DNA of 64,000 nt from positions 186,001 through 250,000 of the forward strand of contig NZ_JACHGF010000009.1 of assembly GCF_014202275.1 (NCBI RefSeq), read 5' to 3'. Below, piece after piece: positions 5,005 through 20,279 of the stretch. Position 1 is the stretch's first letter; every line of letters begins with the position of its first letter. A model generated the notes under the pieces. The model did not search any database. It was not told the origin of the DNA and saw nothing but the letters and a program-made list of their open reading frames with translations. This stretch comes from Rhabdobacter roseus. GTDB taxonomy: Bacteria; Bacteroidota; Bacteroidia; Cytophagales; Spirosomataceae. The position numbers and the translations under genes are program-made.

Positions 5005-5199
5005 ATGAAACAACCCACACTACTAGCTCTATTCCTGCTCTCCATCCTAAGCGCTCATTCCCAAACAAAAAAAGAAACCGCATCCGAAGCGCAGAGCGAC
5101 CAAGTACCCCTCCACCTGGATAAAGCGAACAAGGTGTGGCTGATGACCTACTTTCGGCAGCGCTACCCTACCCGGAACACATCGATAAGCTCGGGATGA
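5005..5199 (+). pseudogene. 5' fragment of a secreted glycosidase-like protein (possible GH43)
   Basis: An ATG 6 bases after the peptidase stop opens a 64-residue frame: signal peptide MKQPTLLALFLLSILSAHSQ, then HLDKANKVWLMTYFRQRYPTR, then an abrupt end. The VWLMTYF segment resembles the first blade of five-bladed propeller glycosidases (GH43-like). Just past it the +1 frame reads EHIDKLGMKG, suggesting a frameshift. The protein is too short to be functional. A C-terminal piece of such an enzyme lies on the same strand at 9989-10204, so the two may be halves of one gene. Family assignment is from memory of similar proteins and is tentative. Confidence 0.4.
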
Positions 5200-5220
5200 A
5201 AGGGGTATGATTTCAGGATT

Positions 5221-5553
5221 TTATAGGTCGTCATACTTTTTGTTTGAACCTTTAGCTTTCTCCACAGGGTACTTTTGCGCGTTCCTTTTAAGTTTTGCCT
5301 CGATGATATCTTTTATGTTGAGATTATAGTGATCGGCAATAAGTAGCGCGGAATACAGTACATCCGCTAATTCTTCCTTGATTTTCTCAACATCCGCACC
5401 GTCGGCATTTTTCCACAGAAAAGCTTGTAATAGCTCCGAGGATTCGATAGTAAGGCATATAGCAAGGTTCTTAGGGTCATGAAACTGTTGCCAATCACGT
5501 TCATCCCGAAATGCTTTGATCTTTTCTATGATTGCCTCAATTTCTGTTTTCAT
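5221..5553 (-). CDS. MazG-like nucleotide pyrophosphohydrolase
   Basis: A 110-residue all-alpha NTP pyrophosphohydrolase of the MazG-like/dCTPase (iMazG) group. These enzymes hydrolyse (d)NTPs to NMP and pyrophosphate with Mg2+. The metal-binding E-x-x-E...E-x-x-D pattern is visible as IESSELLQ followed by KEELADVLYSALLIAD; WQQFHDPKNLA is the family's N-terminal signature. Length is normal. Its ATG overlaps the stop of the upstream HNH endonuclease (ATGA), so the two are translationally coupled. Such enzymes can sanitise modified nucleotides. A joint defence role with the endonuclease is inference. Confidence 0.88.
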   Translation of the reverse strand: MKTEIEAIIEKIKAFRDERDWQQFHDPKNLAICLTIESSELLQAFLWKNADGADVEKIKEELADVLYSALLIADHYNLNIKDIIEAKLKRNAQKYPVEKAKGSNKKYDDL

Positions 5554-6488
5554 CCTCGGTAAATGTTAGCGTTGTGCCATTCTATATATTTTTTGTCGGG
5601 CTTATCGGCATCGTTGATCGGAAGAATCAGCAAGTCTTTTCCATGGTACTGATAGTATTCTTTTCCATTCTCGAACTCCTCCTTTATTCTGTTACTTACC
5701 TCTACCTTGTAATCCCGGGTAACCGTTAAATAGCCATTGTCAAACAGTTTGTGCATATCAGAGCGGAGCAGTATACCGTTGGATGTAAGATGTGGTCCGG
5801 CCTCAGAATAGGATCTTATATGGGCTGCCTCGAGTACTGGTAGGGTTTTTTCGCCAGTGATACTACATCTTCTGGAATAGGCATCAGTGACTAAGATTCT
5901 GAATGCGCCCTGGCCAAGCCTGACTTTTGTTAATACTGGGTTTCCATAGGTTGGAAAAGGTGAATCTTCGACCGCAAAGGGGCTTAATGGGACTTGTTCT
6001 TCCACCATGTATTTATTTAGAAGTGCTTCTACCTGTAGCCATATTCCGTGTCCAATGGGTTCCTCCGTGCTATATGACTTACCCTGAACAATGCTGTTTG
6101 CCCAGTTGGACGGCGTTTCAATCCAATCCTCTTCCCTGAAAAACACCGGATTAGTCAGAACTACACATCCGATCGTCGGATTGATGTTGTGTTTATCAGA
6201 TCGATAGTTTAGAATCATCTTGCTGAACTCATCAAAAGTAGCGCATCCATTCCGGTTACGGAAAGTATCCCAGGCGATTGATATCGGCAGCGTCGTATGG
6301 CTTGAAAAGAAACCAACTCCACCAATGGCATTCAGAGGTTTTTTGAGCTTGAAAAGGAACGGAGCACCGGGCGATAGTAACTTAAAGCTCACATTACCAC
6401 TAGGTTGCCAGAAATTGGCATCCTCAGGGCTTATTTGGCTTAGGTACCGAAACCAATTATTATCTGTAACGCCTAAATATAGCTTCAT
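5550..6488 (-). CDS. HNH endonuclease with EVE/PUA-like N-terminal domain (likely modification-dependent)
   Basis: 312 residues from the ATG at 6488 (MKLYLGVTDNNWFRYL). An ATG at 6539 would add 17 residues that start at the junction with the truncated DUF1156 gene, so the inner start is preferred. The N-terminal half (DNNWFRYL, FWQPSG, PGAPFLFKLKKPLNAIGGVGFF) looks like an EVE/PUA base-reading fold. The C-terminal half carries the HNH nuclease: CSITGEK, LEAAHIRSY, NGILLRSDMHKLFD. EVE-HNH and SRA-HNH enzymes are known to cleave DNA with modified cytosines. It is the first gene of a two-gene unit with the pyrophosphohydrolase. Target modification unknown. Confidence 0.82.
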   Translation of the reverse strand: MKLYLGVTDNNWFRYLSQISPEDANFWQPSGNVSFKLLSPGAPFLFKLKKPLNAIGGVGFFSSHTTLPISIAWDTFRNRNGCATFDEFSKMILNYRSDKHNINPTIGCVVLTNPVFFREEDWIETPSNWANSIVQGKSYSTEEPIGHGIWLQVEALLNKYMVEEQVPLSPFAVEDSPFPTYGNPVLTKVRLGQGAFRILVTDAYSRRCSITGEKTLPVLEAAHIRSYSEAGPHLTSNGILLRSDMHKLFDNGYLTVTRDYKVEVSNRIKEEFENGKEYYQYHGKDLLILPINDADKPDKKYIEWHNANIYRG

Positions 6489-6532
6489 AAAAATTACATT
6501 ATATCCATCATATAAAGATATTATTTCTGTTG

Positions 6533-6649
6533 TTACCACAGGTGCAGCGTAGTGATATGCCCATGCCGAATGGACTTATCCCGCACGCTCTCAGCGGATA
6601 TTTCTTTGATCGGGAGGGCAACTTCTATGAGTTTTTTGAGGGAGGTCAT
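6533..6649 (-). pseudogene. Truncated DUF1156 (methylase-associated) gene, 38 codons left
   Basis: On the minus strand, an ATG overlapping the AbiEii stop (ATGA) begins [20 protein letters not shown], then [18 protein letters not shown] and a TAA. This is the conserved N-terminus of DUF1156 proteins, large DNA-methylase-related defence proteins of about 900 residues in which HLW is followed by WARRP. The frame breaks exactly after HLW, where sequence upstream of the HNH gene begins. The start and overlap are intact, so the gene was once an operon member and lost everything downstream of codon 38. Confidence 0.75.
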
Positions 6650-7497
6650 GGGGTATAACCTTGCTTCAATGCGTGTAAAATCAAAATATTATCTTCCAGT
6701 GTATTGTCAAAGTACTCGATCATAATCCTGGCTATCCCGCTGGTACGGGGATCCGCGGTATTGGCATCCAGAATATCGAGGACCCGCTGGTACAGCTGAT
6801 TGTTTCGTTGGGCAATTTTCCGAATCTCGCGTCCCATTACCTGGGCGGCAATATGCCTGAGGTCATCGTTTTTATTTTCAAACAGGTCCGAGTGGTGGGT
6901 CCAGATTTCCTCGTCGTACAGATCAAAGAAATGGTTCAGGATGTCGCTGATGTCCTTAATGTCATCGCGACGGGCCTCCGGCCGGTCGTCCCAGGCGATG
7001 AGTTTCAGCAGCACAATACCCGGCAGCGTACAGAACTTGAACTGGTGTTCTCCTTCCAGAATCAACTCGGGCAGCCCTTCCTCGTAAATCTCTCCAAAGC
7101 CCGGCATGTTGATGGCCGCGAACCCCGTACCCATGACCCGTACGGTACCGTCCTCATCCGCAATAGCTCCAAAGGGCAGCAGGTCCACCTGCGTCTTGTC
7201 CTGCCAAACGAGCACGAAGGGGTTTTCCTGGTACGGAAAAAACCCTTCATGCCGGATGAGATACTCTTTGAGGGCCTCGTAGGTACCAGGTTGGTTGATG
7301 AGTACAGCAAAGTCAATGTCCCCAGTCGTGCGTCGGGCCTTTTTTTCCTTGATGCTCATCCAGGCATCCCGGGCCACGGCCCCCACCAGGTAAAAGTCTA
7401 TGCCGAATTTTGAGAAGCCCCTTTCCAGACCCGCAAGCAGACCGTGCATTGTGGGGTTCTGCCGCAACTCACGAAAGTTCAGTTTGTAGGTACTCAT
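6646..7497 (-). CDS. abiEii: AbiEii/AbiGii-type nucleotidyltransferase toxin
   Basis: 283 residues from the ATG at 7497 ([11 protein letters not shown]). The polymerase-beta-like nucleotidyltransferase motifs are present: GAVARDAW and GDIDFAVL (the D-x-D metal pair), then VDLLPFG and the [16 protein letters not shown] segment typical of the AbiEii family. Such toxins of type IV systems transfer nucleotides to RNA targets and cause growth arrest during phage infection. The start lies inside the end of the AbiEi gene (29-base overlap), and its stop overlaps the DUF1156 start. No disruption is visible, so the toxin-antitoxin pair appears functional inside an otherwise broken locus. Confidence 0.88.
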
Positions 7498-8470
7498 CGT
7501 ATACTTTTTGGGCGGTTTCGCTGCACCGCCGGTCATGACTATTGATCAGGTCTGCGTATACCAGCAGGGGTGGTACGGTTGGCTGATCGGCTTCCTGTCC
7601 CTGCCAGAACTTCCTGTATACCCGTACGGGGCCTTCCTCATCGGGAATGAGCCGGTAGTTTTTCATCAGCTCGCCGCGGCTTTCCTCGGTGTACAGGGTC
7701 AGCTCGGCGGGTTTCAGGTAGCCCGTCAGCAGTTCCCCGGCCGGTTCGCTTCCCCACAAGGTTTTAGGCGTATTCAGTTTTAGGTTTTTCCAATCGTCAA
7801 ACCCGTCCCTGGCCACGAACCTGAACCGTCCCACGCTCAGGGATGGCTTCAGGGTCTGCCCGTAGGCCGCCGTCCAATGGCCCACTAGTTCATTCAGCCG
7901 CTGGAACTGGTATTCGTTCTTTGATACACTGACCAGGTAGCCTTCCTGCTTCAATCCGTTGATGATATGCGTGATATTACCAATGGACGTACCGGTTTGG
8001 CCGGCAATTTGCCGGTAGGGGAGGTTGATCAGTGCCTGGTCGCGCAGGAACGCAAAGAGAACCCGCAGGCCCGTCTTGGTAAAGGCACGGCTCCGGACCT
8101 GGGGCTTTACCTGCATGGGCTTATTCACCTCAATCCAGAACCACCTTTCTGGGGTTTTCAGGTAGAAGTTCCCGTTGGCTTCCAGGTAGGAGACGTTGTG
8201 GTTTCTCAGCTCCTCCTTGATCTTGGGATACAGCCGACCAGCTATGAGCAGAAAGGGCTGATGCGTTTCACTGAATGCAAAAATCTGGGGCAAAACGTGC
8301 TTTCCGAGCTCTTTTTTTACCTCCACATTAAATTGCAGTACACTTTCCCCAATCCTGACCCGCAAGGTACCATCCAGTCCCTTCTTTGTTTCTTTCTCCC
8401 ATTTCCCTTTGAATTGGGTGGTTTCCAGGAGGTTTTCCAAGGCCGTATGGACGATCTGTTCCTCGGTCAT
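7469..8470 (-). CDS. abiEi: AbiEi-type antitoxin/transcriptional repressor
   Basis: 333 residues, immediately upstream of and overlapping the AbiEii gene. The middle part contains a winged-helix region (LINLPYRQIAGQTGTSIGNITHIINGLKQEG split around residues 150-180), and the C-terminal part ends with PPLLVYADLI and [14 protein letters not shown], typical of AbiEi-like proteins. The N-terminal portion (VEVKKELGKHVLPQI, FLLIAGRLYP) resembles a restriction-endonuclease-fold segment seen in long AbiEi variants. AbiEi antitoxins neutralise AbiEii and repress their own promoter through inverted repeats. A matching repeat array lies directly before the ATG (8471-8505). Confidence 0.85.
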   Translation of the reverse strand: MTEEQIVHTALENLLETTQFKGKWEKETKKGLDGTLRVRIGESVLQFNVEVKKELGKHVLPQIFAFSETHQPFLLIAGRLYPKIKEELRNHNVSYLEANGNFYLKTPERWFWIEVNKPMQVKPQVRSRAFTKTGLRVLFAFLRDQALINLPYRQIAGQTGTSIGNITHIINGLKQEGYLVSVSKNEYQFQRLNELVGHWTAAYGQTLKPSLSVGRFRFVARDGFDDWKNLKLNTPKTLWGSEPAGELLTGYLKPAELTLYTEESRGELMKNYRLIPDEEGPVRVYRKFWQGQEADQPTVPPLLVYADLINSHDRRCSETAQKVYDEYLQTELS

Positions 8471-8505
8471 GTTTACAAAATTTTAGTGTTTACACAAACG
8501 TAAAC
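8471..8505. promoter_or_regulatory. Candidate AbiEi operator (GTTTAC repeats)
   Basis: GTTTACA at 8471-8477, GTTTACAC at 8488-8495 and the inverted GTAAAC at 8500-8505 lie directly against the AbiEi start codon. They form a direct repeat plus a GTTTAC-N6-GTAAAC dyad. Negative autoregulation through inverted repeats is established for AbiEi proteins. The match here is by position and symmetry only. Confidence 0.55.
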
Positions 8506-8531
8506 ATCTTTTATTGATAAACAAAATGTAC

Positions 8532-9694
8532 TCATAATTTAGCCCTCCACTCTCCCATTGGCAAAAAGTACTGCACCCCTTTCGGCTTCACCTGGAAGGT
8601 CAGCGTCTGGGCTAGGTTCTGGATCCGGTGTAGCTCAGGGGTACTTTTGCAGTTGATGACAATATACAGCCAGGCAGAATCACCCAGTTGGGCCAGGCGT
8701 AAGTTGATAGGCAATCGTTTTGGTGTAGCGGTTCTTATATAAGGGTTTGCCCTACCAATCCTTCATGTCTTCCTTCAAGCGCCGGATAAAGAACTTATTG
8801 ATGCCGTTATGCTCTAATTCTTTAATGCGGGTGGAGGCAATCTCATCAGTAGCAAAGATGTCTTCGTCCAGAATTTGCAGCAGTTTCTTGAAGATGTCCG
8901 TCCGACCGCGGTGAGGCGTGGCCGTTAACAACAGAATGTGTTCGCATTGCTGGGATAACAGCTGTGCCGCCTTGTACCGCTGGGAAAGGTACTGCCGGTT
9001 GCCGTAGTCGTAGGCCGACAGCTTGTGGCACTCGTCAATCACGATTAGATCCCAGTGAGAGTTCCCTGCAACATTCAGGACGTCGTCCCTAGAGATAAAA
9101 TCGATGGACGTAACAATCCGCGGAGCGGTATGGAAATATTCGGATCGGAGGAGAACAGACTCCTATTAACAAGCGTGAAGGGGATGTTGAACTTGATAGC
9201 CAACTCATCCTCCTGCCATTGTTTGGTGAGACCTCCGGGCGTAATGATAAGGATGCGCTCGATCAAGCCCCCCAGCAGCATTTCCTTGATCAGTAGGCCG
9301 GTCATGATCGTTTTACCCGCCCCGGTATCGTCGGCCAACAGGAATCGGATTTTTGGCAGGGGCAACAGATATTTGTATACAGCTTCTACCTGGTGTGGGA
9401 GCGGGTCCACGATGCTGCAATTGACGGCAAAGAGAGGATCAAACTGATAGGCAGAGTTGATACGTTCGGCTTCGGCAAACAAGGCAAAATGGACGGGATC
9501 TCCCTCAAAATTGAAAGTACCTCCGCCAGTACTTCGAGTTGCTCAAACTCCGAGACGGAGATAACCTTGGTATTGGTTCGTTTGGTGTTAACGCCCGTAA
9601 ATTTCACGGACACCATGGTGCCCAGGGGCTGGATATGGTTGAGCGTGACAGGTTCGGAGGGGATAAGATTCTTGATAATCTGACCGGGTTGCAT
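8532..9694 (-). pseudogene. Broken SNF2/DEAD-type defence helicase
   Basis: Minus-strand pieces of one large helicase, normally about 1000 residues. From the ATG at 9694: MQPGQIIKNLIPSEPVTLNH; after a frameshift near 9520, DPLPHQVEAVYKYLLPLPKI with Walker A ADDTGAGKT and Ia ITPGGLTKQW; after a second frameshift near 9140, the DECH box (VIDECHKLSA) and LLLTATPHRG. An in-frame TAG follows KEDMKDW near 8752, then KPLYKNRYTKTIAYQL. The frame then jumps by a large internal deletion to a DUF3883-like C-terminus (AWLYIVINCKSTPELHRIQN). Helicases of this kind pair with DUF1156 methylases in defence operons; the DUF1156 remnant lies downstream on the same strand. Clearly non-functional. Confidence 0.85.
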
Positions 9695-9813
9695 GGCGTG
9701 TTGCAAGAGGGACTGTGTTTTATAAGTTGTTTTAAAATAGTACTGGCAGGGGCCCAAAAAAGTACTTATTTCAAATCACCTTGGAGTGACCAAAGTTCAA
9801 GCTTACGTCTCCT

Positions 9814-9936
9814 ATGAGTATTCAACGAAAGAAAGCAAAGCGTAAGAAATATCCTAGTGACATTGGCAAGAATAGCCCAAGAAAACTCAACTCGAATTTA
9901 CCGAAAAGCAAATCGAGGGCAGAGGCGGAAAAGTAG
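9814..9936 (+). pseudogene. Possible N-terminal remnant of an IS5-type transposase
   Basis: A 40-codon frame beginning MSIQRKKAKRKKYPSDIGKN then continuing PRKLNSNLPKSKSRAEAEK and stopping. The KYPSDI...LP.SKS pattern resembles the start of IS5-group transposases, and the next codons after the stop still read VDRSVLGFL. It lies at the right edge of the defence island. No terminal inverted repeats were recognised, so the assignment is tentative. Confidence 0.3.
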
Positions 9937-9988
9937 ATCGTAGCGTATTAGGATTTTTAAGAGTCGATTAACAGCATCATATACGTAG

Positions 9989-10204
9989 TGGACTTGGCTG
10001 CTGCTCTACGATTACTGCATGACCAACCGCTTTGGGGCTTCCTACTCGCCCGATTTGATTCACTGGAGCGTGGAGGAGGACGTAAGCTTTCCGTCGGAAG
10101 CCCGGCACGGCTGCGTTTCGCTCTTAACCTCTAAGGAGGCTAAGGCTTTGCTGCAAAAGTACCCAGGTACCCCCTCAAACGTGCGTTCTTGGCAAGAGCC
10201 ATGA
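9989..10204 (+). pseudogene. C-terminal fragment of a GH43-like glycosidase
   Basis: The open frame reads WTWLLLYDYCMTNRFGASYS, then PDLIHWSVEEDVSFPSEARH and GCVSLLTSKEAKALL to a TGA. The pattern W.L.YD...RFGA..S.DL.HW....VSFP.EARHG is the last blade and tail of secreted five-bladed propeller glycosidases annotated as arabinosidase/GH43. No start or upstream part of the enzyme is present; an in-frame TAG sits at 9986. It is on the same strand as the secreted N-terminal fragment at 5005-5199. Confidence 0.6.
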
Positions 10205-10311
10205 AGCCTGAGCTGGTGTTTTGTGCCGGCATTTTATTCTGTATCGGCACCATTTCTCTTACATCCCTACAACCATTTTGCCACGATAAGGATCATAGTA
10301 TGAGCGAATGA
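10201..10311 (+). other. Small open frame with signal-like sequence
   Basis: The ATG overlaps the glycosidase-fragment stop (ATGA) and gives 36 residues, MKPELVFCAGILFCIGTISL, then a short polar tail. It could be the start of a lost downstream secreted protein or chance. No family recognised. Confidence 0.2.
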
Positions 10312-10340
10312 ATACAGCCATGGATTAAAAGCGTATTTTC

Positions 10341-10766
10341 ATGAAACAAATGCTCTCGTGTAAGACCACATCCGTCACAAAAAATTTCTTGCTTTGCTTC
10401 TTTTTAGTAGCTGGATGTACCGTTTCTGAACCTGATCCGTACGAAGCGGGGAAATGCTACGAAGGTACTTATATAAGGGGATTTTGCCCTAGCGTTGCGG
10501 TTGTATCAGTTACCAATGCAAACATCGGAATCAAATGGGATTACAACGGCAAAAAGTACAGCAATGCACTAGCCATTCATAACTTTGAGATCGACTCGCT
10601 GGGGCCAGATCGTACAATCTACTTTACAATTGACGTTGACGAAACCGCCAAAGGAGGTGAATGTTACCTACCTATTCATTGCCAAATGTGGCTGTTTGAT
10701 ACATCATCACCAGAAGTAGGTATTTGTGCAAAGACCATTTCGAACAGACCTTGTGATCAGTTATAA
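10341..10766 (+). CDS. Small hypothetical lipoprotein
   Basis: 141 residues. An N-terminal signal ends in the lipobox LVAGC (Cys26), so the mature protein is probably anchored in the outer membrane. Six further cysteines are spread through the mature part (KCYEG, FCPSV, ECYLPIHCQ, GICAKT, RPCDQ), suggesting disulfides. No family recognised. Flanked by remnants on the left and by a 230-base gap on the right. The coding call rests on the lipobox and a continuous frame. Confidence 0.65.
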   Translation: MKQMLSCKTTSVTKNFLLCFFLVAGCTVSEPDPYEAGKCYEGTYIRGFCPSVAVVSVTNANIGIKWDYNGKKYSNALAIHNFEIDSLGPDRTIYFTIDVDETAKGGECYLPIHCQMWLFDTSSPEVGICAKTISNRPCDQL

Positions 10767-10997
10767 TACGAATGGTCCTATTCTCCCAAAAATCACAAAA
10801 TTATAAGTACCTTTCCGCCTTCCTGAATTCTCCAAAAGCTTCCCCATCCCTAGCATCGACCAATAATTCCCGGCCCTGGCGCGTTCAATACTAGGACGAA
10901 AACGCCTCAAGTACCTCCGACCCGTCGGGGGTACTTGGGTAGATTTCGGCCCCTGGGTACTTTGTACCAAGTATCATCCAAGCCTATCCGACTTACT

Positions 10998-11939
10998 ATG
11001 CACGTTCTTTTTCCTAAACGCCTCTGGGTACTGGTCCTGATTTTTGTCACGCAGCTCAGCTATGCGCAGTCGGGCCAAGGTACCTCCCGCCGCGCCCAAA
11101 CCGATACGCTGCGCGTGTTCCTGATCGGCAACAGCTTTTCGCAAAACGCCGCCCGCTACCTGCCCCAGCTCGCCGCCCAAGGCGGGCATCCGCTGGTGAT
11201 TGGCCGCGCCGAGCTGGGTGGCTGCTCGCTGGAGCGCCACTGGACCCACGCCGCCGCCTTTGAAGCCAACCCCAACGACCCCAACGGCAGCCCCTATAAA
11301 GATAAATCGCTGCGGCAGCTGCTGTCGGAAGGTACCTGGGACCTCATCACGATTCAGCAAAACTCCATGAACTCGCCCGACCCAGGTACCTACCAGCCCT
11401 ACGCCCGCCAGCTCTACGACTACGTCAAGGCTATCCAGCCGCAAGCCGAGGTGGTGTTGCACCAAACCTGGGCCTACCGCTCCGACGCCGACGGCTACGG
11501 GCAGGTAAGCCCAGGTACCTTTGCCCAGAGCGAGCGCGACATGTGGGAGAAATCGCGGGCGGCCTACCACGCGACGGCCCAAAACCTGGGCGTGCGGGTG
11601 ATCCCCGTGGGCGATGCCTTTTGGGCCGTGAGCTCAGACCCCGCCTGGGGCTACCGCCAGGACCCGAACTATGATTTCAAAGCTCCCAAGTACCCCTCCC
11701 TGCCCAACCAGGCCAACTCGCTGCACGTGGGCTACCGCTGGACCAACGACCAGAAGTGGGGCTTTGATTCGCACCACGCCAACGAGGCCGGTTGCTACCT
11801 GGGTTCGCTGGTGTGGTACACGTTTCTGTTTGGCGATTCGCCCCAAAAGCTCACCTTTGTCCCCGAGCCCGTACCGGCGGTCCTGGCCGCCCAGCTCAAA
11901 AAAGTGGCGGAACAAACCGTGAGCCAGGTACGTAAGTAG
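10998..11939 (+). CDS. Secreted DUF4886 (SGNH-hydrolase-like) protein
   Basis: 313 residues from the ATG at 10998, which opens a signal peptide ending LSYAQ; the longer frame from 10935 is not needed. The SGNH block I is VFLIGNSFSQNA (Ser nucleophile), with ELGGCSLERHW and ITIQQNS following, and DSHHANEAGCYL near the C-terminus gives the D-x-x-H-like pair. DUF4886 proteins are SGNH/GDSL-fold hydrolases often found in glycan loci and thought to remove acyl groups. It sits 28 bases before the first ECF sigma gene on the same strand, so the two may be co-transcribed. Confidence 0.87.
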   Translation: MHVLFPKRLWVLVLIFVTQLSYAQSGQGTSRRAQTDTLRVFLIGNSFSQNAARYLPQLAAQGGHPLVIGRAELGGCSLERHWTHAAAFEANPNDPNGSPYKDKSLRQLLSEGTWDLITIQQNSMNSPDPGTYQPYARQLYDYVKAIQPQAEVVLHQTWAYRSDADGYGQVSPGTFAQSERDMWEKSRAAYHATAQNLGVRVIPVGDAFWAVSSDPAWGYRQDPNYDFKAPKYPSLPNQANSLHVGYRWTNDQKWGFDSHHANEAGCYLGSLVWYTFLFGDSPQKLTFVPEPVPAVLAAQLKKVAEQTVSQVRK

Positions 11940-11967
11940 AGCAGGTACTTCACACAACTCGAAGCCT

Positions 11968-12594
11968 ATGAATGATTTAGCAAACCCCACTGAACATAGC
12001 CGCCTCTGGGACGAATTCCGGGCCGGAAGCCAGGAGGCGTTTTCGCGGATGTACGAACTCTACGCCGAGGATATGTACCGCTACGGCTATAACCTGGTAC
12101 GCAACAAACAGCTGGTGGAAGACTGCCTGCACGAGCTCTTCCTGCACCTGCACAGCCACCGCCGACGCCTGGGTAGCACCGATAACATTCGCTTTTACCT
12201 GTACCTTTCGCTGCGGAGAAGGCTGTTTGACACCGTCCGGAAATCAAATCGCTACCGCTCCGACGAGTACGTTTTTGAAGACGCCGAGTTCCTGATCCAG
12301 CCCTACGAGCAGCAGTGGATTCATGAGCAGTCCGTAGCCTGGCAAAACAAGGTGGTGGTCACGGAGCTGAACAAACTACCCAAGCGGCAAAAAGAAATTC
12401 TGTACCTGGTGTACATGAAAGGCCTTACCTACCAGCAGGCGGCAGAAGTGATGGACATTACGCTCAAGAGCGTCTATAATACCGTGAGCGTGGCGCTGGC
12501 TACGCTGAAAGGGTACCTTAAGGAATCGTTGCAGCCCGAAGGGCTTACCTGGGGCATCGTTGGCTTGTTTCTAAAATATATTCTACATGGCTAA
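11968..12594 (+). CDS. ECF RNA polymerase sigma factor (unit 1)
   Basis: 208 residues with sigma region 2 (FRAGSQEAFSRMYELYAEDM, DCLHELFLHLHSHR) and region 4 (LPKRQKEILYLVYMKGLTYQ, then QAAEVMDITLKSVYNTV). It directs RNA polymerase to target promoters, here most likely those of the SusC/SusD genes downstream. The FecR-type anti-sigma factor follows directly. Normal for Bacteroidota surface-signalling sigma factors. Confidence 0.93.
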   Translation: MNDLANPTEHSRLWDEFRAGSQEAFSRMYELYAEDMYRYGYNLVRNKQLVEDCLHELFLHLHSHRRRLGSTDNIRFYLYLSLRRRLFDTVRKSNRYRSDEYVFEDAEFLIQPYEQQWIHEQSVAWQNKVVVTELNKLPKRQKEILYLVYMKGLTYQQAAEVMDITLKSVYNTVSVALATLKGYLKESLQPEGLTWGIVGLFLKYILHG

Positions 12595-12628
12595 CTACCC
12601 ATCTTCAAGTCCAAACCGGATATTTACC

Positions 12629-13612
12629 ATGAATTACCTCTCCTACGAAATCGACGATTTTTGTCAGGACTCGGACTTCATCGGCTGGGTACTTGCTCCC
12701 GGTCCCGAATCCGATGCTTTCTGGCGCAGTTTTCTGGAAAAGTACCCCCACAAAGCCGCCGCCGTGCAGGCCGCCGCCGAGCGGGTAAGGCTGTTTCAGT
12801 TTCAGGAAATAGAACCCCAACCGAGCGACCTGAACCGCCTCCGCGAGCGCATCTGGAACGACCTCGAAACACCGGTGCTCAGGCTGTCCTGGTGGCAAAA
12901 GCCCGCCTTCCGCGTGGCGGCTACCGTCGCGGTGCTGCTGGTGTCGCTGGGGGTACTTTGGTGGAGCAGGGTACCGGGCGCGTCCCAAACCTTCCAGACC
13001 GACTACGGCCAGGTACAGCGGATCGAGCTGTCGGACGGCTCCGTCGTAACGCTCAACGCGCATTCGTCGCTCAAGGTGGTGGAGAATCTCAAGGACCAGC
13101 CCGTGCGGGAAGTGTGGCTCACGGGCGAGGCGTACTTTGCCGTAGCCAAGCGCCAGGGCGGCAAATTTATCGTGCACACGCCCGAGGCCTCCATTGAGGT
13201 ACTGGGTACGGAGTTCAACGTCAATACCCGCCGCCAGCAAACCAAGGTAGTCCTTCAGGAAGGCAAAATTCAACTCCTCACCGACCAAGCCCCCGCCCTG
13301 ACCATGAAGCCCGGCGACATGGCCACCGTGAAGGAAAACGACCAGGCCGTGCAGTTACAGATTGTCCAACCCGAGCACTACAACGCCTGGAAGGAATCCT
13401 ACCTGGTGCTGGACGACCGCCCCGTGACCGAGATCGTGGACATGCTGGAAGATACCTACGGCCTGCGGGTGCAGTTTGAAAACAAAGTGCTGTTGAGCAA
13501 AAAACTAACGGGCAAGTTGAGCCTGAAAGAAATGGATGATTTCATCGAAAACCTAAGTACCATTCTGGACACGGATGTAGAAAAAACTACCGACGGGTAC
13601 CTGCTTAGGTAA
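12629..13612 (+). CDS. FecR-family anti-sigma factor (unit 1)
   Basis: 327 residues from the ATG at 12629 (MNYLSYEIDDFCQDSDFIGW); an ATG at 12587 that overlaps the sigma stop is possible but adds an untypical leader. A cytoplasmic N-terminal domain binds sigma. One membrane segment lies at about residues 95-113 (RVAATVAVLLVSLGVLWW). The periplasmic FecR domain contains ELSDGSVVTLNAHSSL and VLGTEFNV, and the C-terminal STN-like DUF4974 domain VTEIVDMLEDTYGLRV. It should relay substrate binding at the SusC transporter to the sigma factor. Confidence 0.92.
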   Translation: MNYLSYEIDDFCQDSDFIGWVLAPGPESDAFWRSFLEKYPHKAAAVQAAAERVRLFQFQEIEPQPSDLNRLRERIWNDLETPVLRLSWWQKPAFRVAATVAVLLVSLGVLWWSRVPGASQTFQTDYGQVQRIELSDGSVVTLNAHSSLKVVENLKDQPVREVWLTGEAYFAVAKRQGGKFIVHTPEASIEVLGTEFNVNTRRQQTKVVLQEGKIQLLTDQAPALTMKPGDMATVKENDQAVQLQIVQPEHYNAWKESYLVLDDRPVTEIVDMLEDTYGLRVQFENKVLLSKKLTGKLSLKEMDDFIENLSTILDTDVEKTTDGYLLR

Positions 13613-13673
13613 GTAGGTTCAGGGTACTTTGTCCTCGAAAACCGGCTGTCGGTCAGCCTTTTCGTTAGAAATA

Positions 13674-13711
13674 AAAAAGCGGCCTCAGGGGTGCCTGAGT
13701 GCCGCTTTTTG
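13674..13711 (+). terminator. Terminator/attenuator between FecR and SusC (unit 1)
   Basis: AAAAAGCGGC-CTCAGG (13674-13689), loop GGTG, CCTGAG-T-GCCGCTTTTT. A long, nearly perfect stem with a U-run, about 60 bases after the FecR stop. It should separate the regulator genes from susC or attenuate read-through. Confidence 0.85.
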
Positions 13712-13819
13712 TATAAAAGTTAAACTTTTTCAGAAAATAGTTCATAGAAAACCGGGAAATGTCAGGAAGCAGGCCGTTTAACAACCAGAGGCCTTACCAT
13801 TCATATTCCTGCTTTTACT

Positions 13820-16800
13820 ATGAAAAAACGTATTCCACTGATCCTGTTCCTGGCTCCGCTCCTCGGCGGCCACGGGTTTCAGGAGCTGCACGCACAAACC
13901 ATACTGGCCTACCAACCGCCCCAGGTCGAGAACCGGGCGGTACAAGAAAGCGCCAACAGCCTGATCAACTTACTCAAAAAACTCGAGACGATCCACAAAG
14001 TCAGCTTTGTGTACCAACGCGAGCTGCTGGAGAATAAAACGATTTCGACTTCCATTAACGAAAACGATAAGCCGGAGGCCATTCTGGCGCGGGTACTTCC
14101 GCCCATGAACCTGCGCTACAAAAAGCTCAAAGGCGGCGGCTACGCCATCCTGGCCCGCAAAGCCACCACCCCAGGTACCTCCGCCGAAAGCAAACCCGCC
14201 AGTACCACTACCACGCAGGTACCCCGCGAAAATGTGCCCGCAGGTACCTCCGGCGAAACCGCGCTCGTGTCGCCTCTCCCCCCCAGCCTGGCCCCGAGCC
14301 AGCCGGTCGAGATCACGGTGCAGGGGCGGGTCGTTGACGCCGAAAATGGCGAGGGCCTGCCCGGCGTGAGCATTACCCTGAAAGGTACTACCCGCGGCAC
14401 CAATACGGACGTGAGCGGCAACTACTCCCTGAGCGTCCCGGACGAGCAGGCCGTGCTGGTATTCAGTTTTGTGGGATACCAGGCCCGCGAGGAAGTGGTA
14501 GGTACCCGAACGACCCTCAACGTAACCCTCCGCACCGACAGCCGCGCGCTGGAAGAAGTGGTGGTGGTGGGGTACGGTACCGTCAGGAAAAGTGACCTGA
14601 CGGGCTCGGTGGCGCAGGTAAAATCCCGGGAGATCAACGCCTTCCCGGCGGCCAATCCGCTCCAGGCGCTGTCGGGCCGGGCGGCGGGCGTGCAGGTAAC
14701 CCAAAACAGCGGCGCACCGGGAGCGCCCGTCAGCGTGCGGATTCGGGGTACCAACTCGGTGCAGGGCAGCAACGAGCCGCTTTACGTGGTGGATGGTTTT
14801 CCCATTGCGGGTTCCAACCCGACGATCCTGAACAACGCCGACATCGAGAGCGTGGAGGTACTTAAAGACGCCTCGGCCACGGCCATTTACGGCTCTCGCG
14901 GGGCCAACGGCGTGGTCATTATCACCACCCGACAAGGGAAGGCGGGCATTACGCGGGTTGACTTCGAAACCAGCTACAGCGTACAGACCCTGCGGAAAAG
15001 AATGGACTTGATGAATGCTCAGGAGTATGCCCGGTTTTATAACATCCAGGCCGCCAACGACAACCTCAGCCCCTACTTCACGCAGCAGCAGATCGACGGC
15101 TTCGGCGAGGGCTTCGACTGGCAGGATCTGGTGTTTCGCCGGGCTCCCATGAAAACCACTTCCCTGAATGTTAACGGCGGAAACGAGAAAACCCAGTTTT
15201 CGGTGTCGGGTAGTTTCTTCGGTCAGGACGGCATCATTGTGGGGAGCGACTACAACCGCTACTCGCTCCGGACCAACATCAACCACAAGATGGGCGAGAA
15301 ATTCAGCGTGAACTTGTCAAGTACCCTGAGCCGCCTCAATACCGACCGCCGCGACAACGCCGGTGGGTCACGCGGCAACTCCATGATCTCAGCGGCGCTT
15401 TCGGCCCCGCCCACGCTCACGCCCTTCAATGAGGACGGCTCCTACCGCGTGCTGGCTACGGCCTACCCTTTCGTGGCCACGGACCTGATCAACCCCATTA
15501 ATTTTATCAACGAGCAAACCAACCAGATCCGGGCCAACCGGATTCTGACCAACGCCGCGCTGCTTTTCAACCCCATTCCCGAGCTCACCATTAAGATTTC
15601 GGGCGGGATCGAAAACGCCGACGACCGTACCGACGAATACACCACCCGCAACTACTTCAACTCGCCGGGGAGAGCGTCCATCAGTACCAGCCAGGTAATG
15701 AGCTTGCTGAACGAGAATACCATCAGCTACCAGAAAACCTTTCAGGAAACGCACAGCATCTCGGCCGTAGCCGGTTTTACCTACCAGGATTTTACCACGA
15801 CCTTTCTTTCGGCCACGGGCAACGGTTTCCTGAGCGACATCACCGAAACTGCCAACCTCGGCTCCGCCACGACGCCCGGCATACCGAGCTCGGGCTACTC
15901 CAAGGCGGTGCTGCTGTCGTACCTGGCACGGGTCAACTACGGCTACCAGGACAAGTACCTGCTCACGGCCAGCCTGCGCCGCGACGGCTCCTCGCGCTAC
16001 AGTGAAGGCAACAAATGGGGGCTCTTCCCCTCCGCAGCCGTGGCCTGGCGCGTCTCCAACGAGGAGTTCCTGCGCAACAGCACGCTTATTTCCGAGCTGA
16101 AATTCCGGGCGAGCTGGGGCTTAACCGGCAGCCAGGCCATTTCGCCTTACTCCACGCTCAACCAACTCTCGGCGGGGCGTACGGTATTTAACGACGCGTT
16201 ATTCACCACCTTTGCCCCCGGCACCACCCTGCCCGGCAACCTGAAATGGGAAACCACCGAGCAGATCGACGTTGGAATTGACCTGGGTATCTTCCGCAAC
16301 CGGGTACTTTTCACCGCCGACTACTACATCAAAAACACCCGCGATTTGCTCAATACCGTCCGGCTGCCGTCCTCGCTGGGCTTCACCACGACGATCCAGA
16401 ACGTGGGTGCCGTGCAGAACAAAGGCCTGGAGCTGGGCCTGGATGGCCGGATCTTCACGGGGGCTTTCGAGTGGGACCTCAACGCCAACATCTCGTTTAA
16501 CCGCAACAAAGTAGTGACGCTTTACGGCGGGGACGACATCCTGGGCGGCACCGTCAACGTAGTCGTGGTGAACGACGTAGCCAACATCCTGCGCGAGGGG
16601 CAGCCCATTGGGCGCTTCTGGGGCTACCAGGAAGACGGCTACACCGACCAGGGCCGCATCCGGTTCCGGGATCTGGACGGAGACGGGGCCATTACCCAAA
16701 ACGACAAAACCTACATCGGTGATCCGAATCCGAATTTTATTTATGGCATCAATTCCCGGATGTCGTTCAAGAATTTTGACTTGACGCTATTCATTCAGGG

Positions 16801-17230
16801 TACCCAGGGCAACGATATTTTCAACGTCAGCTCCATTACCAATACCATCGACTACGGTTTTGGACTGAACATGCCCAGGGAGGTACTTTACAACCACTGG
16901 TCGCCCAGCAACCCCGACGCCAAGTACCCGCTCATCAGCCGTAACACCGCCACCCGCCTGTCGGACCGCTTCGTAGAAGATGGCTCCTACCTGCGGCTGC
17001 GGAACATCCAGCTGGCGTACAACCTGCCCACCGAAAAGCTGGGCATTAACTGGCTGCGGAGCCTGCAAGTCTATGCCAGCGGCCAAAACTTGCTCACTTT
17101 CACCAAGTACTCCTGGTGGGACCCCGAAGTAAACAGCCGGGGCGGGGCCAACTCAACCGTACAGGGCATCGACCATAACAGCTACCCTACGGCTAAGGCG
17201 GTTACCGCTGGCCTGCGGGTAGGATTCTGA
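13820..17230 (+). CDS. SusC/RagA-family TonB-linked outer-membrane transporter with STN domain (unit 1)
   Basis: 1136 residues. Signal peptide to LHAQ; an STN (secretin/TonB short N-terminal) signalling domain at about 40-115; a Thr/Pro-rich linker; a carboxypeptidase-regulatory-like domain ([28 protein letters not shown]); a TonB-box-like [11 protein letters not shown]; a plug with the SusC signature ANGVVIITTRQG; then a 22-strand-type barrel ending in an aromatic-poor AVTAGLRVGF. It imports glycan fragments together with SusD. The STN domain indicates regulation through the FecR and sigma proteins just upstream. Substrate unknown; rhamnose-containing glycans are plausible from the downstream GH78. 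Confidence 0.95.
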   Translation: MKKRIPLILFLAPLLGGHGFQELHAQTILAYQPPQVENRAVQESANSLINLLKKLETIHKVSFVYQRELLENKTISTSINENDKPEAILARVLPPMNLRYKKLKGGGYAILARKATTPGTSAESKPASTTTTQVPRENVPAGTSGETALVSPLPPSLAPSQPVEITVQGRVVDAENGEGLPGVSITLKGTTRGTNTDVSGNYSLSVPDEQAVLVFSFVGYQAREEVVGTRTTLNVTLRTDSRALEEVVVVGYGTVRKSDLTGSVAQVKSREINAFPAANPLQALSGRAAGVQVTQNSGAPGAPVSVRIRGTNSVQGSNEPLYVVDGFPIAGSNPTILNNADIESVEVLKDASATAIYGSRGANGVVIITTRQGKAGITRVDFETSYSVQTLRKRMDLMNAQEYARFYNIQAANDNLSPYFTQQQIDGFGEGFDWQDLVFRRAPMKTTSLNVNGGNEKTQFSVSGSFFGQDGIIVGSDYNRYSLRTNINHKMGEKFSVNLSSTLSRLNTDRRDNAGGSRGNSMISAALSAPPTLTPFNEDGSYRVLATAYPFVATDLINPINFINEQTNQIRANRILTNAALLFNPIPELTIKISGGIENADDRTDEYTTRNYFNSPGRASISTSQVMSLLNENTISYQKTFQETHSISAVAGFTYQDFTTTFLSATGNGFLSDITETANLGSATTPGIPSSGYSKAVLLSYLARVNYGYQDKYLLTASLRRDGSSRYSEGNKWGLFPSAAVAWRVSNEEFLRNSTLISELKFRASWGLTGSQAISPYSTLNQLSAGRTVFNDALFTTFAPGTTLPGNLKWETTEQIDVGIDLGIFRNRVLFTADYYIKNTRDLLNTVRLPSSLGFTTTIQNVGAVQNKGLELGLDGRIFTGAFEWDLNANISFNRNKVVTLYGGDDILGGTVNVVVVNDVANILREGQPIGRFWGYQEDGYTDQGRIRFRDLDGDGAITQNDKTYIGDPNPNFIYGINSRMSFKNFDLTLFIQGTQGNDIFNVSSITNTIDYGFGLNMPREVLYNHWSPSNPDAKYPLISRNTATRLSDRFVEDGSYLRLRNIQLAYNLPTEKLGINWLRSLQVYASGQNLLTFTKYSWWDPEVNSRGGANSTVQGIDHNSYPTAKAVTAGLRVGF

Positions 17231-17266
17231 CGGACAACATCACGGACTTTTTAAAAGTACTTACCA

Positions 17267-18745
17267 ATGAAAAATAAAACATCCAAGTGGTTAACCAGCT
17301 CCCAAAAGCCCTTACGTTGGGGCCTTTCGGGAGCGCTGTGCCTGCTCCTGCTTACTTCCTGCGAAGATCTGCTGGAAGAAAATCCGAAGTCCATCGTCGT
17401 GGAGACGTTTTTCAATACGGCGGGCGAGGTAGAGTCGGCTACCAACGCCATCTACGCCCCGCTCCGCGCCAACCGCTTTACCGAATACGAGGCCACGCTC
17501 GAAGCCATGGCGGAGTACGCCTACGGGCGGGGTAGTTGGGCCCCGCTGCACGAGTTCCAGGGCTTCAACGATGTCAACATCAACCGGGTAGCTACCTTCT
17601 GGGATGCCTTTTACCTGAGCATTCGCAACGCCAACCTGGTGATCCAAAATGCGCCCAACGGCAGCGCTATTAGCCAGGCCGACATCAATCGGTTTGTGGG
17701 CGAGGCCAAGTTCCTGCGGGCGTTCAACTACTTCCAGCTGGTCCGGAACTGGGGCGGGGTACCGCTGCGTACCGAGCAGAACATGACGGTGGGTGATTTG
17801 CGCAAGAGCAGCCCGGAAGAAGTCTACACCCTCATCCTGGCGGATCTAACGGAGGCCGAAACCAACCTGCCCGACAACCCCACGCACGTGGGCCGCCCTA
17901 CCCGCTGGGCCGCCAAAACGCTCCTGGCCGACGTCTACCTGCAACGCGGAGAATACGCCCTGGCGCGCGACAAAGCCGACGAGGTGATGAAGTCCAACAA
18001 ATTCTCGCTGGTACCCGTCACTTCCCGGCAGGACTTCCAGCTGCGGGTTTTTGGCCCCGAGCTGCTCACGACGCCCGAAGAGATTTTTTACCTCAAGTAC
18101 GCCCGGCAGGTGGGTCAGGGCAACTACATGCTTTGGATCACCAACCACCCCAGCACCAACCTCTTCAATTTCGGAGGAGCGTACGCCATCCACGGCGACG
18201 CGACCAATCCCTTTTACCAAAACTGGGACAACGCCGATTTGCGTAAAGCCCTCTGGGACCGGGTGAACATTGGTCTGGGAGCTACGAGCCTGGTGAGTGC
18301 CAAGTTCATCGATCAGAACGCCATTGCTCAAAACGGAGCCGGCAACGATGATCCCGTTTATGGCTACTCCGACGTACTGTTGATGTACGCCGAGGCCGCC
18401 ACCCGCGCCGCCGGTGCCCCCACGCCCGAAGCGCTGGAGGCCCTCAACAGGGTACACCGCCGCGCCTACGGCCAAGCCCCCAACACGGCTTCAACGGTAG
18501 ACTACGTACTGGCCGACTACACGGCCGCGACCTTTCTGGAGCTGGTGAGTCGGGAGCGGGCGTACGAGTTTCAGCTGGGAGGCAAGCGCTGGCTGGAGCT
18601 CAAACGGACCGGCCGGGCTAACGAGGTGATCCGAGCCACCAAGGGCATTACCATTGCCGAGAAACACTACCTGTGGCCTATCCCGCTGTCGGAGCTGAAC
18701 TTCAACAAAGCGCTCACCGCCGCCGATCAAAATCCGGGATATTGA
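17267..18745 (+). CDS. SusD/RagB-family glycan-binding lipoprotein (unit 1)
   Basis: 492 residues, 36 bases after the SusC stop. Lipobox LLLLTSC with Cys32. The N-terminal TPR-like fold shows EVESATNAIYAPLR and AKFLRAFNYFQLVRNWGGVP, and the C-terminal SusD segment shows LLMYAEAATRA and ERAYEFQLGGKRWLELKRTG, ending in the usual LNFNKALTAADQNPGY. It forms the lid over the SusC barrel and binds the oligosaccharide at the cell surface. Confidence 0.95.
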   Translation: MKNKTSKWLTSSQKPLRWGLSGALCLLLLTSCEDLLEENPKSIVVETFFNTAGEVESATNAIYAPLRANRFTEYEATLEAMAEYAYGRGSWAPLHEFQGFNDVNINRVATFWDAFYLSIRNANLVIQNAPNGSAISQADINRFVGEAKFLRAFNYFQLVRNWGGVPLRTEQNMTVGDLRKSSPEEVYTLILADLTEAETNLPDNPTHVGRPTRWAAKTLLADVYLQRGEYALARDKADEVMKSNKFSLVPVTSRQDFQLRVFGPELLTTPEEIFYLKYARQVGQGNYMLWITNHPSTNLFNFGGAYAIHGDATNPFYQNWDNADLRKALWDRVNIGLGATSLVSAKFIDQNAIAQNGAGNDDPVYGYSDVLLMYAEAATRAAGAPTPEALEALNRVHRRAYGQAPNTASTVDYVLADYTAATFLELVSRERAYEFQLGGKRWLELKRTGRANEVIRATKGITIAEKHYLWPIPLSELNFNKALTAADQNPGY

Positions 18746-18899
18746 TGGCGTAGTAAAAAAGGTACCTGGAAGTAATAAGGCGCTTCTTGTAAAGAGATAA
18801 AACACGAGGAAGTAGGTAGAAAGCGTTAAGCCTTCTGCCTACTTCTTAGTCACAAAAAGAGTACAGGCTGGATTTGCGCTTACAAAAGCATTGGATACT

Positions 18900-20279
18900 A
18901 TGAAAAAAATGGAAAGAAGATCGGCGCTCGCTACGATCGGGGCCATGTCGCTGGGAATGGCCGCGCCCAAGCTGGCGAAGGGCGAACGCCTCGCTGAACC
19001 GTATAAGATTAAAAAGCAGTCTTTGAAAACCGATATTCTGGTGATCGGCGGCGGGACGGCCGGGGTCGTGGCCGCCATCCAGGCCGGGCGGGCCGGGCGG
19101 AAAACCATCCTGGTCGAGAACGGCAGCCAGCTGGGCGGCGTCACCACTACCGGCGGCGTGGCCTATCCGGGCATCTTTTTTGCCTGGGGCCAGCAGGTCA
19201 TTGGGGGCATTGGTTGGGAAATGGTGCAGGAAGCCGTGGCGCTGAACGACGATACGCTACCCAACTTTACGGTACCCCACGGCCGCCAGCACTGGACCCA
19301 CCAGGTGCGCCTCAACGGCCCGCTCTACGCCATGCTCATCGAGGAAAAATGCCTTGAAGCCGGGGTAGATCTCCGTTTTTACGAAACCCCCACCCAAATT
19401 TCGTTTCAGAAAAACAGCTGGGTAGTCCAAACCATGGGCAAAGGTACCCAAACGGAAATCACCTGCAACCAGCTCATCGACTGCACCGGCAACGCCTACG
19501 CGGCCTCCATAGCGGGCTTCAACGTACTGCGCGAGGTCGAAACGCAGCCCGGTACGCTGATGTTTGCGCTCGGTGGCTACGACTTCCAGTCGCTGGACCT
19601 GCCGCTGATCCAGAGCCGCTACAACGAGGAATTAAAAAAGGGGGATATGGTCAAGACGGAGTTTTACAACATCGTGGCCCTGCTCCGCAGCGCGGGCGAC
19701 AACGTGCAGCACATTAAGGGTGCCGACTCCACCACCTCCGAAACCCATACCATCGCCAACATCAAAGGCCGTACTTCGCTGCTAAAAATGCTGCGGTTTC
19801 TGCGCACCCTCCCCGGACTGGAAAAGACCCGGCTCATTGACATGCAGCCGGAAACAGCCGTGCGGGAAACCTACCGCATCGACGGGCACTACAAAATCAC
19901 CCAGGAAGACTACGTGACGGGTAAACATTTCGACGACGCCGTTTCGTACTCCTACTACCCCATTGACCTGCACGACGAGAAAGGCGTTATTCCCAATCAG
20001 CTCAATCCGGGCGTGGTACCTACCATCCCGATCCGGGCGCTGGTACCCAAGGGCAGCAAAAACTTCCTGGTGGCGGGCCGCTGCCTGAGCAGCGACCGCC
20101 TGGCCAACTCGGCCCTGCGCGTACAGGCCTCCTGCATGGGCATGGGCCAGGCCGCCGGAGCGGCGGCGGCACTGGCCAGTAAGCTGGGCAAATCGCCCCT
20201 GGAGGTACCTCTCGCCGACCTGCGTCAGCTCCTGGAGGCGCACGGGGGGATTTTTCCTACAAAAAATCGAAAAGGGTAG
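18900..20279 (+). CDS. Exported FAD-dependent oxidoreductase (unit 1)
   Basis: 459 residues from the ATG at 18900 (MKKMERRSALATIGAM), a twin-arginine-like leader; an ATG 9 bases earlier is equally open. The dinucleotide-binding motif VIGGGTAGVVAAIQAGRAG is followed by the family motif GSQLGGVTTTGGVAYPG. The C-terminal part (PKGSKNFLVAGRCLSSDRLA, RVQASCMGMGQAAGAAAALA) is the FAD-binding end of this PF12831-type family. It probably oxidises or reduces a sugar or sugar acid outside the cytoplasm. The next gene starts 16 bases later and may be its electron partner. The reaction is not known. Confidence 0.88.
   Translation: MKKMERRSALATIGAMSLGMAAPKLAKGERLAEPYKIKKQSLKTDILVIGGGTAGVVAAIQAGRAGRKTILVENGSQLGGVTTTGGVAYPGIFFAWGQQVIGGIGWEMVQEAVALNDDTLPNFTVPHGRQHWTHQVRLNGPLYAMLIEEKCLEAGVDLRFYETPTQISFQKNSWVVQTMGKGTQTEITCNQLIDCTGNAYAASIAGFNVLREVETQPGTLMFALGGYDFQSLDLPLIQSRYNEELKKGDMVKTEFYNIVALLRSAGDNVQHIKGADSTTSETHTIANIKGRTSLLKMLRFLRTLPGLEKTRLIDMQPETAVRETYRIDGHYKITQEDYVTGKHFDDAVSYSYYPIDLHDEKGVIPNQLNPGVVPTIPIRALVPKGSKNFLVAGRCLSSDRLANSALRVQASCMGMGQAAGAAAALASKLGKSPLEVPLADLRQLLEAHGGIFPTKNRKG

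Follow-up and report, generated by a model that had tools for sequence, protein, structure and literature searches.

An intact AbiE toxin-antitoxin pair in a derelict Hma defence operon of Rhabdobacter roseus: probably an optional, self-contained cargo

When a defence operon carries a toxin-antitoxin pair, does the pair serve the operon or does it persist for its own sake? A 64,000-nucleotide stretch of Rhabdobacter roseus (contig NZ_JACHGF010000009.1, positions 186,001 to 250,000; hereafter the window) offers a natural experiment on the role of such genes, as its positions 5028-9694 hold, on the minus strand, the wreck of an Hma operon in which the genes AbiEi and AbiEii survive whole. Hma, so named in Payne 2021 (PMC8565338), consists of three genes, for a helicase, a methyltransferase and an ATPase, and has been re-described as the Type-1 DUF499-centred BREX-Related (BR) system (PMC12839542). 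The original prediction offered, as one reading, that the pair guards the larger system or addicts the host to it; our analysis favours an autonomous AbiE cassette over a guard.

The remnants follow one another on one strand in the order HmaA', AbiEi, AbiEii, HmaB', HNH, MazG, HmaC', collinear with the loci L043 and L044 (L and G numbers are our handles for loci and genomes). All three Hma genes have left remnants and none is intact, whereas in the intact relative L043 all three are whole and match the PADLOC Hma models (HmaA 692, HmaB 462 and HmaC 475 bits); the window locus is a derelict of the Hma/Type-1 BR family, and its copy is non-functional. The helicase had been described as broken by two frameshifts, a stop and an internal deletion, and so it is: residues 3-60, 62-190 and 191-336 are left in successive frames, followed by 1086-1140; the frame shifts at about 9521 and again at about 9135, a stop codon comes at about 8752, and the sequence then jumps from residue ~336 to 1086. 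At the DNA level the remnant comprises 1001 nucleotides with 74% identity to intact HmaA and two gap openings, after which ~2.25 kb have been deleted; its middle fragments are 88-92% identical in amino acid sequence to intact HmaA of L041, L042 and L043, its end fragments 64-79%. A search of the genome gave these fragments as its only strong HmaA matches (a SNF2-like frame of ~1100 amino acids elsewhere scores 80 bits, versus 692 bits for intact HmaA). The HmaB stub, correctly said to end after codon 38, matches the N-terminal 38 residues of the HmaB proteins from L040-L043 at 87-89% identity, and a DUF1156 search of the genome found nothing beyond it. The genes listed earlier were thus described accurately; the HNH and MazG genes within the interval and a scrap of HmaC, mostly outside it, had gone unmentioned. 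The tblastn matches of this scrap are 64% over 25 amino acids (L045), 50% over 46 (L043) and 39% over 72 (L042).

Both AbiE genes are intact, as had been claimed: they are open frames that align at full length to their relatives, and both lie above their Pfam cut-offs (26.9 bits for AbiEii versus a cut-off of 22.5 bits). The predicted overlaps are exact, with 29 bases shared by the two genes (AbiEi stop at 7469, AbiEii ATG at 7497) and an ATGA at 6649-6646 shared by the AbiEii stop and the HmaB start. This is the antitoxin-then-nucleotidyltransferase bicistron of AbiE Type IV systems. An alignment of 12 AbiEii sequences has 30 invariant columns, among them G39, R43, D60, D62, D105 and K165, and the conserved nucleotidyltransferase catalytic residues (D60, D62, D105, K165) are present in the window AbiEii. 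Motif I of nucleotidyltransferases is typically G-S or G-G; here it reads G-A, within the motif LVGAVARD...DID of this divergent AbiEii. The nearest solved folds to an AlphaFold model of AbiEii (predicted local distance difference test score, pLDDT, 87) are nucleotidyltransferases, with two matches only at E <= 0.001, ANT(2'')-Ia and LnuA, and weaker ones to CCA-adding enzymes and a CD-NTase; an AbiEii profile run against the sequences of solved structures returned nothing useful.

The pair is also whole in other genomes in which no intact Hma was found. The closest AbiE pairs, both intact, occur in other genera (G443, AbiEi 86% and AbiEii 88% identical; G565, 75% and 82%), and upstream of each lies HmaA debris, clear in G443 (residues 917-1139 in pieces, E 2e-34) and probable in G565 (a trace of 43 nucleotides at 77%, at the expected place). 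A DUF1156 match is absent from G443 and G565 in the family genome search; the HmaB trace after AbiEii, weak in G565 (shuffle p 0.028) and missing in G443, is not relied on. The survival of the pair after the loss of Hma, which the original prediction had proposed, is seen in the window, clearly in G443 and probably in G565. A single chromosomal site shared by the three was rejected, as 5 kb to the left and 12 kb to the right of the window locus gave no tblastx match to the G443 and G565 stretches. Comparing the window with G443 by the method of Nei and Gojobori, the ratio of nonsynonymous to synonymous substitutions (dN/dS) is 0.12 for AbiEi (dS 0.56) and 0.14 for AbiEii (dS 0.44). The corresponding ratios against G565 (AbiEi 0.12-0.14, AbiEii 0.05, MazG 0.04, and an HNH pN/pS, the ratio of the uncorrected proportions, of 0.10) are indicative only, dS being at least 1.4 or beyond estimate. 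As judged from these codon substitutions, the AbiE pair is under purifying selection.

AbiE is also common without Hma. Among 18 AbiE-bearing stretches (4-20 kb each), 14 have no Hma match, and in L028 the sole match is to a helicase domain at 26%; the G443 and G565 Hma debris lies in L077 and L078, and in L027 the AbiE is decayed and neighbours a DUF499/DUF1156 system of another kind. In this sample AbiE is mostly solo and often decaying, and what stands out is a whole AbiE in a dead host operon. On these two counts, its integrity without Hma and its solo occurrence, the proposal that AbiE is a guard of the larger system or makes the host dependent on it is not supported. AbiEii also occurs on plasmids (23 records, below 60% identity).

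Intact relatives with the order helicase - AbiEi - AbiEii - DUF1156 were sought and found (L043/L088, L044, L094). In 222 genomes of the family Spirosomataceae, DUF1156 is present in eight, the window's own included, and we examined the other seven. Two of them, G493 and G585, carry AbiE between helicase and DUF1156. The former, Emticicia agri (L043, which is also L088), has the order HmaA, a 338-amino-acid gene, AbiEi, AbiEii, HmaB, HmaC; its AbiEi and AbiEii are 55% and 61% identical to those of the window, with the same ATGA junction to HmaB. This species is one counter-example to the notion that intact relatives never carry AbiE at this place. The others vary: in G437 an AbiEii of another class directly precedes DUF1156 (the contig begins inside AbiEii), G550 has a DUF6577-AbiEii pair 63 bp before the helicase, and G555 a DUF6088-AbiEii pair ~1.1 kb before it. 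G549 has no adjacent AbiE, with a YhcG-type nuclease between HmaB and HmaC, an opposite-strand gene between HmaA and HmaB, and a window-type AbiE pair ~13 kb from Hma on the same contig; in G556 HmaB is interrupted and no AbiE was found in the stretch examined. At the genome level the expected association holds, with a window-type AbiEii match in 6 of the 8 DUF1156 genomes versus 24 of the 214 others (Fisher p 9e-5), a count that ignores kinship and genome size, includes the window itself, and has three positives (G437, a stub; G549; G550) whose AbiEii match lies away from the Hma operon.

To place these cases in a wider census of the hmaA-hmaB slot, the genomes of 84,980 species were scanned with an HmaB alignment; at least 585 loci matched, and the best 80 of them, leaning to close relatives, were analysed. 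Of these, 65 were counted, with HmaA upstream of HmaB on the same strand; the other 15 had no such HmaA or an uncalled HmaB. With eight seeds (phmmer E <= 1e-3), a search that divergent copies could escape, AbiEii was found in the slot of 5 of the 65 operons (L088, L089, L092, L094, L121) and in none of the remaining 60. The pairs belong to different classes: AbiEi_2 in L043/L088, L044 and L094 (in L094 Pfam confirms AbiEi_2, and AbiEii is under the cut-off at 0.0014), AbiEi_1 in L089 and L092 (Pfam confirms AbiEi_1 and AbiEii), and DUF6577 in L121, where AbiEii is split by a stop and Pfam matches its first piece. In L040 the contig is cut within the slot AbiEii. Counting the window, five of the eight slot loci have the ATGA junction of AbiEii to HmaB.

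The placement is specific. In a Pfam-only test over 79 genomes (that of L109 excluded), with 157 AbiEii match rows, some genes giving two, three AbiEii (G613, G616, G644) immediately precede a DUF1156 gene in the same orientation, where ~0.03 would be expected (P 6e-6); DUF1156 positions came from the 51 AbiEii-positive genomes (83 rows), the other 28 being counted with one each, and Pfam misses the window-type AbiEii of L088 and L094. AbiEii lies within about 9 kb of DUF1156 in G645, G662 and G683. When slot and flanks are compared within the 80 loci, 5 of 7 AbiEii-like loci fall in the slot, which makes up 11.8% of the non-Hma sequence (p 4e-4). This count is biased, since three of the eight seeds are themselves slot genes from these loci (L043 = L088, L089, L121); the Pfam-only count is the fair one.

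A single entry of AbiE into Hma was rejected, with an approximately unbiased test p of 4e-61 for a single clade made up of the six window-type AbiEii that occur with Hma or with Hma debris (24 rows); L044 and L094 have long branches in this tree. On the HmaB tree (31 rows, 29 labelled) AbiE presence changes at least six times. Polyphyly and these changes make AbiE a repeatedly acquired cargo rather than part of the Hma core. The contention that the pair was integral to the operon and not a later insertion is supported in one part, since our comparisons place it within the operon before the window copy decayed, and is not supported in the other, as the 60 of 65 slots in which none was found, the polyphyly and the at least six changes go against it. 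One slot has been refilled repeatedly, by different AbiE classes, and pairs can stay intact after the operon is gone; together these argue against a guard and for autonomous backup or selfish cassettes, perhaps also regulatory ones.

Regulatory potential may reside in the sequence before AbiEi. Directly upstream lies a promoter-like TTTG-N19-TACGTTTG, a pattern which we take to be a Bacteroidota-type promoter consensus; with 2 matches in the 64 kb window versus 0.55 expected by chance, it is weak alone. Overlapping it, the operator-like palindrome TGTTTACGTTTGTGTAAACA has no second copy in the 6.9 Mb genome, even with one mismatch allowed, and it recurs before AbiEi in L077, L078 and, within an intact operon, L043 (20 bp); a variant with TGTTCAC stands before several solo AbiE pairs. 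Further inverted repeats just before AbiEi, seen with a mismatch-tolerant search where a perfect-palindrome scan gave none, are present in L044 (23-nucleotide arms, 87% complementary), L089 (18 nucleotides, 94%) and L092 (15 nucleotides, 93%); in 2000 shuffles, those of L089 and L092 turned up 0 and 1 times, respectively. L094 has only a weak 10-nucleotide repeat, and L121 none by the stricter, perfect-palindrome scan. An AbiEi-proximal operator within the intact operon is thus plausible in 4 of the 6 slot loci examined, which makes AbiEi control of the downstream hmaB-hmaC a live possibility. The L089 and L092 repeats (L089 1146-1188 and L092 8351-8387), in intact Hma operons of different genomes, are near-identical, with the sequence TTGCAATAAACCCC...GGGGTATATTGCAA, and are a candidate operator or hairpin within the operon.

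We consider it probable that AbiE is a self-contained toxin-antitoxin or abortive-infection cassette, an optional cargo of Hma that persists for its own sake after the operon dies. In intact Hma operons the hmaA-hmaB slot often holds a further module, of defence-like or toxin type; in this lineage it was the Type IV pair AbiEi-AbiEii. By analogy with a studied AbiE pair, AbiEi would repress its own promoter and neutralise AbiEii, and the nucleotidyltransferase may arrest growth once the balance is upset, e.g. in infection, so that in intact operons AbiE, translated beside hmaB, could serve as a second, abortive-infection line of defence. With a regulator and a neutraliser of its own, the pair would tolerate flanking deletions; loss of the antitoxin or of the pair would be penalised, or the pair would still be useful, and AbiE would thus outlast Hma, here together with HNH-MazG. 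An abortive-infection benefit and selfish addiction cannot be told apart by conservation. Several points count against this explanation. Synonymous sites are near saturation in the G565 comparisons, and dN/dS is unable to date selection relative to the window's Hma loss, which looks recent. AbiEii fits Pfam modestly, with the embedded L043 and L094 copies below the cut-off, and the G565 HmaA trace is short. Moreover AbiE is not always retained: of the 30 family genomes with a window-type AbiEii match, 9 carry an in-frame stop within it, and the slot AbiEii of L121 is split.

If instead AbiE sensed or depended on an intact Hma and were unleashed when Hma fails, it would tie the host to Hma. The repeated placement within the operon, often translationally coupled to hmaB, would suit this, and the concept exists for CRISPR-Cas in the CreTA modules (PMC9458426, PMC10097628). 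We nevertheless regard it as very unlikely, as AbiE brings its own antitoxin, is intact in the window, G443 and G565, where no intact Hma was found, occurs solo in the stretches described above, was not found in the slot of 60 of the 65 operons, and is split in L121 beside an Hma operon. A chance landing of a common defence-island gene, whose survival reflects which bases happened to be deleted, draws on how widespread AbiE is in the Pfam rows, on the solo state of most window-type pairs inspected and on defence islands being hot spots of turnover. This too appears unlikely given the position and strand specificity, the ATGA junctions, several independent entries into one slot, and intact AbiE with dN/dS well under 1 beside debris in stretches without common flanks.

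An internal switch, in which an operator between hmaA and abiEi controls abiEi-abiEii-hmaB-hmaC and the antitoxin sets the level of methyltransferase and ATPase, is compatible with the cassette explanation. It fits the inverted repeats directly before AbiEi in intact operons of two AbiE classes (L043, L044, L089, L092), the ATGA coupling of AbiEii to HmaB, and a DUF6577-AbiEii pair 63 bp upstream of hmaA in L046; the feeble repeat of L094 and the lack of one in L121 by the stricter scan speak against it, the repeat of L089 and L092 might form a hairpin with another role, and hmaA of L121 is followed by so short a gap that read-through seems likely, leaving the switch a rather doubtful proposition. 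Slightly less doubtful, and still tentative, is a broader proposal in which some Hma/Type-1 BR systems would repeatedly have AbiE as a built-in module, AbiEi acting as the operon-internal repressor that sets methyltransferase and ATPase and AbiEii as a last-resort growth-arrest effector; at the parent's death the cassette would be left behind or re-partnered (HNH-MazG), so that dying operons yield new small ones.

The pair resembles the AbiE Type IV system described in PMC3985639 in having an AbiEi antitoxin and a nucleotidyltransferase AbiEii, overlapping genes and inverted repeats before AbiEi. There, AbiEi represses its promoter via the inverted repeats, and the pair, whose toxin is bacteriostatic, has a plasmid-stabilising effect. 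Neutralisation of toxicity by AbiEi without protein-protein contact, and phage resistance, are further marks of AbiE Type IV systems. Unlike that pair, the one in the window is of the AbiEi_2/PF09952 class, has a divergent AbiEii and is embedded in a defence operon. CreTA as presented in PMC9458426 and PMC10097628 is likewise a toxin-antitoxin module beside a defence system but needs a Cas effector for repression, whereas the window AbiE has its own antitoxin and is intact without Hma; to judge by gene content, it does not appear to be a guard of the CreTA type, AbiE being intact with only a DUF1156 fragment and no intact HmaA found. It is also like the auxiliary or backup effectors of BREX/BR (PMC12839542), a second effector module within or beside an operon, and differs from them, as there described, in outliving the core system. 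The BR companions named in PMC12839542 are HEPN, HEPN-MNT, Schlafen, PIN, TOPRIM/OLD, HNH and PD-(D/E)XK, AbiE not being among those named in its main text. The word AbiE is absent from the main texts, supplements aside, of PMC12839542, PMC8565338 and PMC7641849 and occurs once in PMC3710099, in a reference title; AbiE in Hma/BR loci is thus provisionally a new finding.

Table 1. Features of the decayed Hma locus (window positions)
Feature	Position	Strand	Basis
AbiEi (AbiEi_2 family), antitoxin and presumed autoregulator, intact, 333 amino acids	7469..8470	-	PF09952, 5.8e-27
AbiEii nucleotidyltransferase, predicted toxin, intact, 283 amino acids from inner ATG	6646..7497	-	PF08843, 5.7e-6
Promoter-like TTTG-N19-TACGTTTG	8495..8525	-	pattern match
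Operator-like palindrome TGTTTACGTTTGTGTAAACA	8487..8506	-	conserved before AbiEi in relatives
HmaA remnant, SNF2-type helicase	8535..9694	-	PADLOC PDLC00659, fragments 6.8e-41 and 1.8e-15
HmaB (DUF1156 adenine methyltransferase), cut after codon 38	6533..6649	-	PF06634, 3.5e-9
HmaC (DUF499 ATPase) scrap, around residues 494-555	about 5028..5243	-	tblastn, E about 2e-5
HNH nuclease (HNH_2), intact	5550..6488	-	PF13391, 9.1e-11
MazG-like nucleotide pyrophosphohydrolase, intact	5221..5553	-	PF12643, 1.3e-15; overlaps HNH gene end

The HNH-MazG pair occupies the place of the HmaB body and the front half of HmaC, which means that the end of HmaB is not a bare truncation. The HNH nuclease has a weak likeness to the phosphorothioated-DNA restriction endonuclease (NF045808, 76.7 bits versus a 180-bit cut-off). 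Both genes follow AbiEii directly and in the same order in G565 (HNH 86% and MazG 87% identical), and among the 11 family genomes with an HNH of at least 58% identity (own included; stretches ~4 kb) MazG stands beside HNH in the window, G565 and G580 only. The order AbiEi-AbiEii-HNH-MazG recurs at G565 (L078:8020-11169), in a stretch without flank match to the window, and these genes are possibly a small four-gene defence unit. Just past the 5' end of the HmaA remnant, a 40-residue open reading frame (9814-9933, plus strand) was suspected to be the start of an insertion-sequence transposase; Pfam is silent on it.

Other cargo also occupies the slot, with Pfam confirming GmrSD (L090), a Schlafen AlbA_2 protein (L124) and an HD-domain protein (L122), and an OLD-like ATPase and more GmrSD, AlbA_2 and HD pairs labelled by eye. 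An HD-domain protein with a small partner sits in the slot of L122, L129, L135, L136 and L151 (Pfam confirms HD in L122 only), the hosts being sulfate reducers, methane-cycling archaea and a planctomycete. Pfam is silent on the partner, which we presume might be a Panacea/SocA-like antitoxin, and the combination suggests another toxin-antitoxin-like cargo. The 338-355-amino-acid gene directly after HmaA (L043 11828-12844, also L041 8272-9339) has a PDLL...FEVKE motif that by eye suggests a PD-(D/E)XK nuclease; it has no Pfam match above cut-off, and the L043 copy no PADLOC match. In L027 (G188, 10833-19901) the DUF499 and DUF1156 frames are open and lie a few kb from the decayed AbiE, which is on the other strand; the gene after these frames resembles, by eye, the phospholipase-D helicase of the Type-2 BR system, giving the reverse pattern of a dead AbiE beside a living defence system. 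Finally, in L079 (G558, 6913-17279) an AbiE pair (AbiEii 67%) lies directly upstream of hsdM-hsdS-hsdR-like Type I restriction genes (labels by eye), and this stretch shares a DUF6088 gene (97.5%) with the stretch upstream of the Hma operon of G555.

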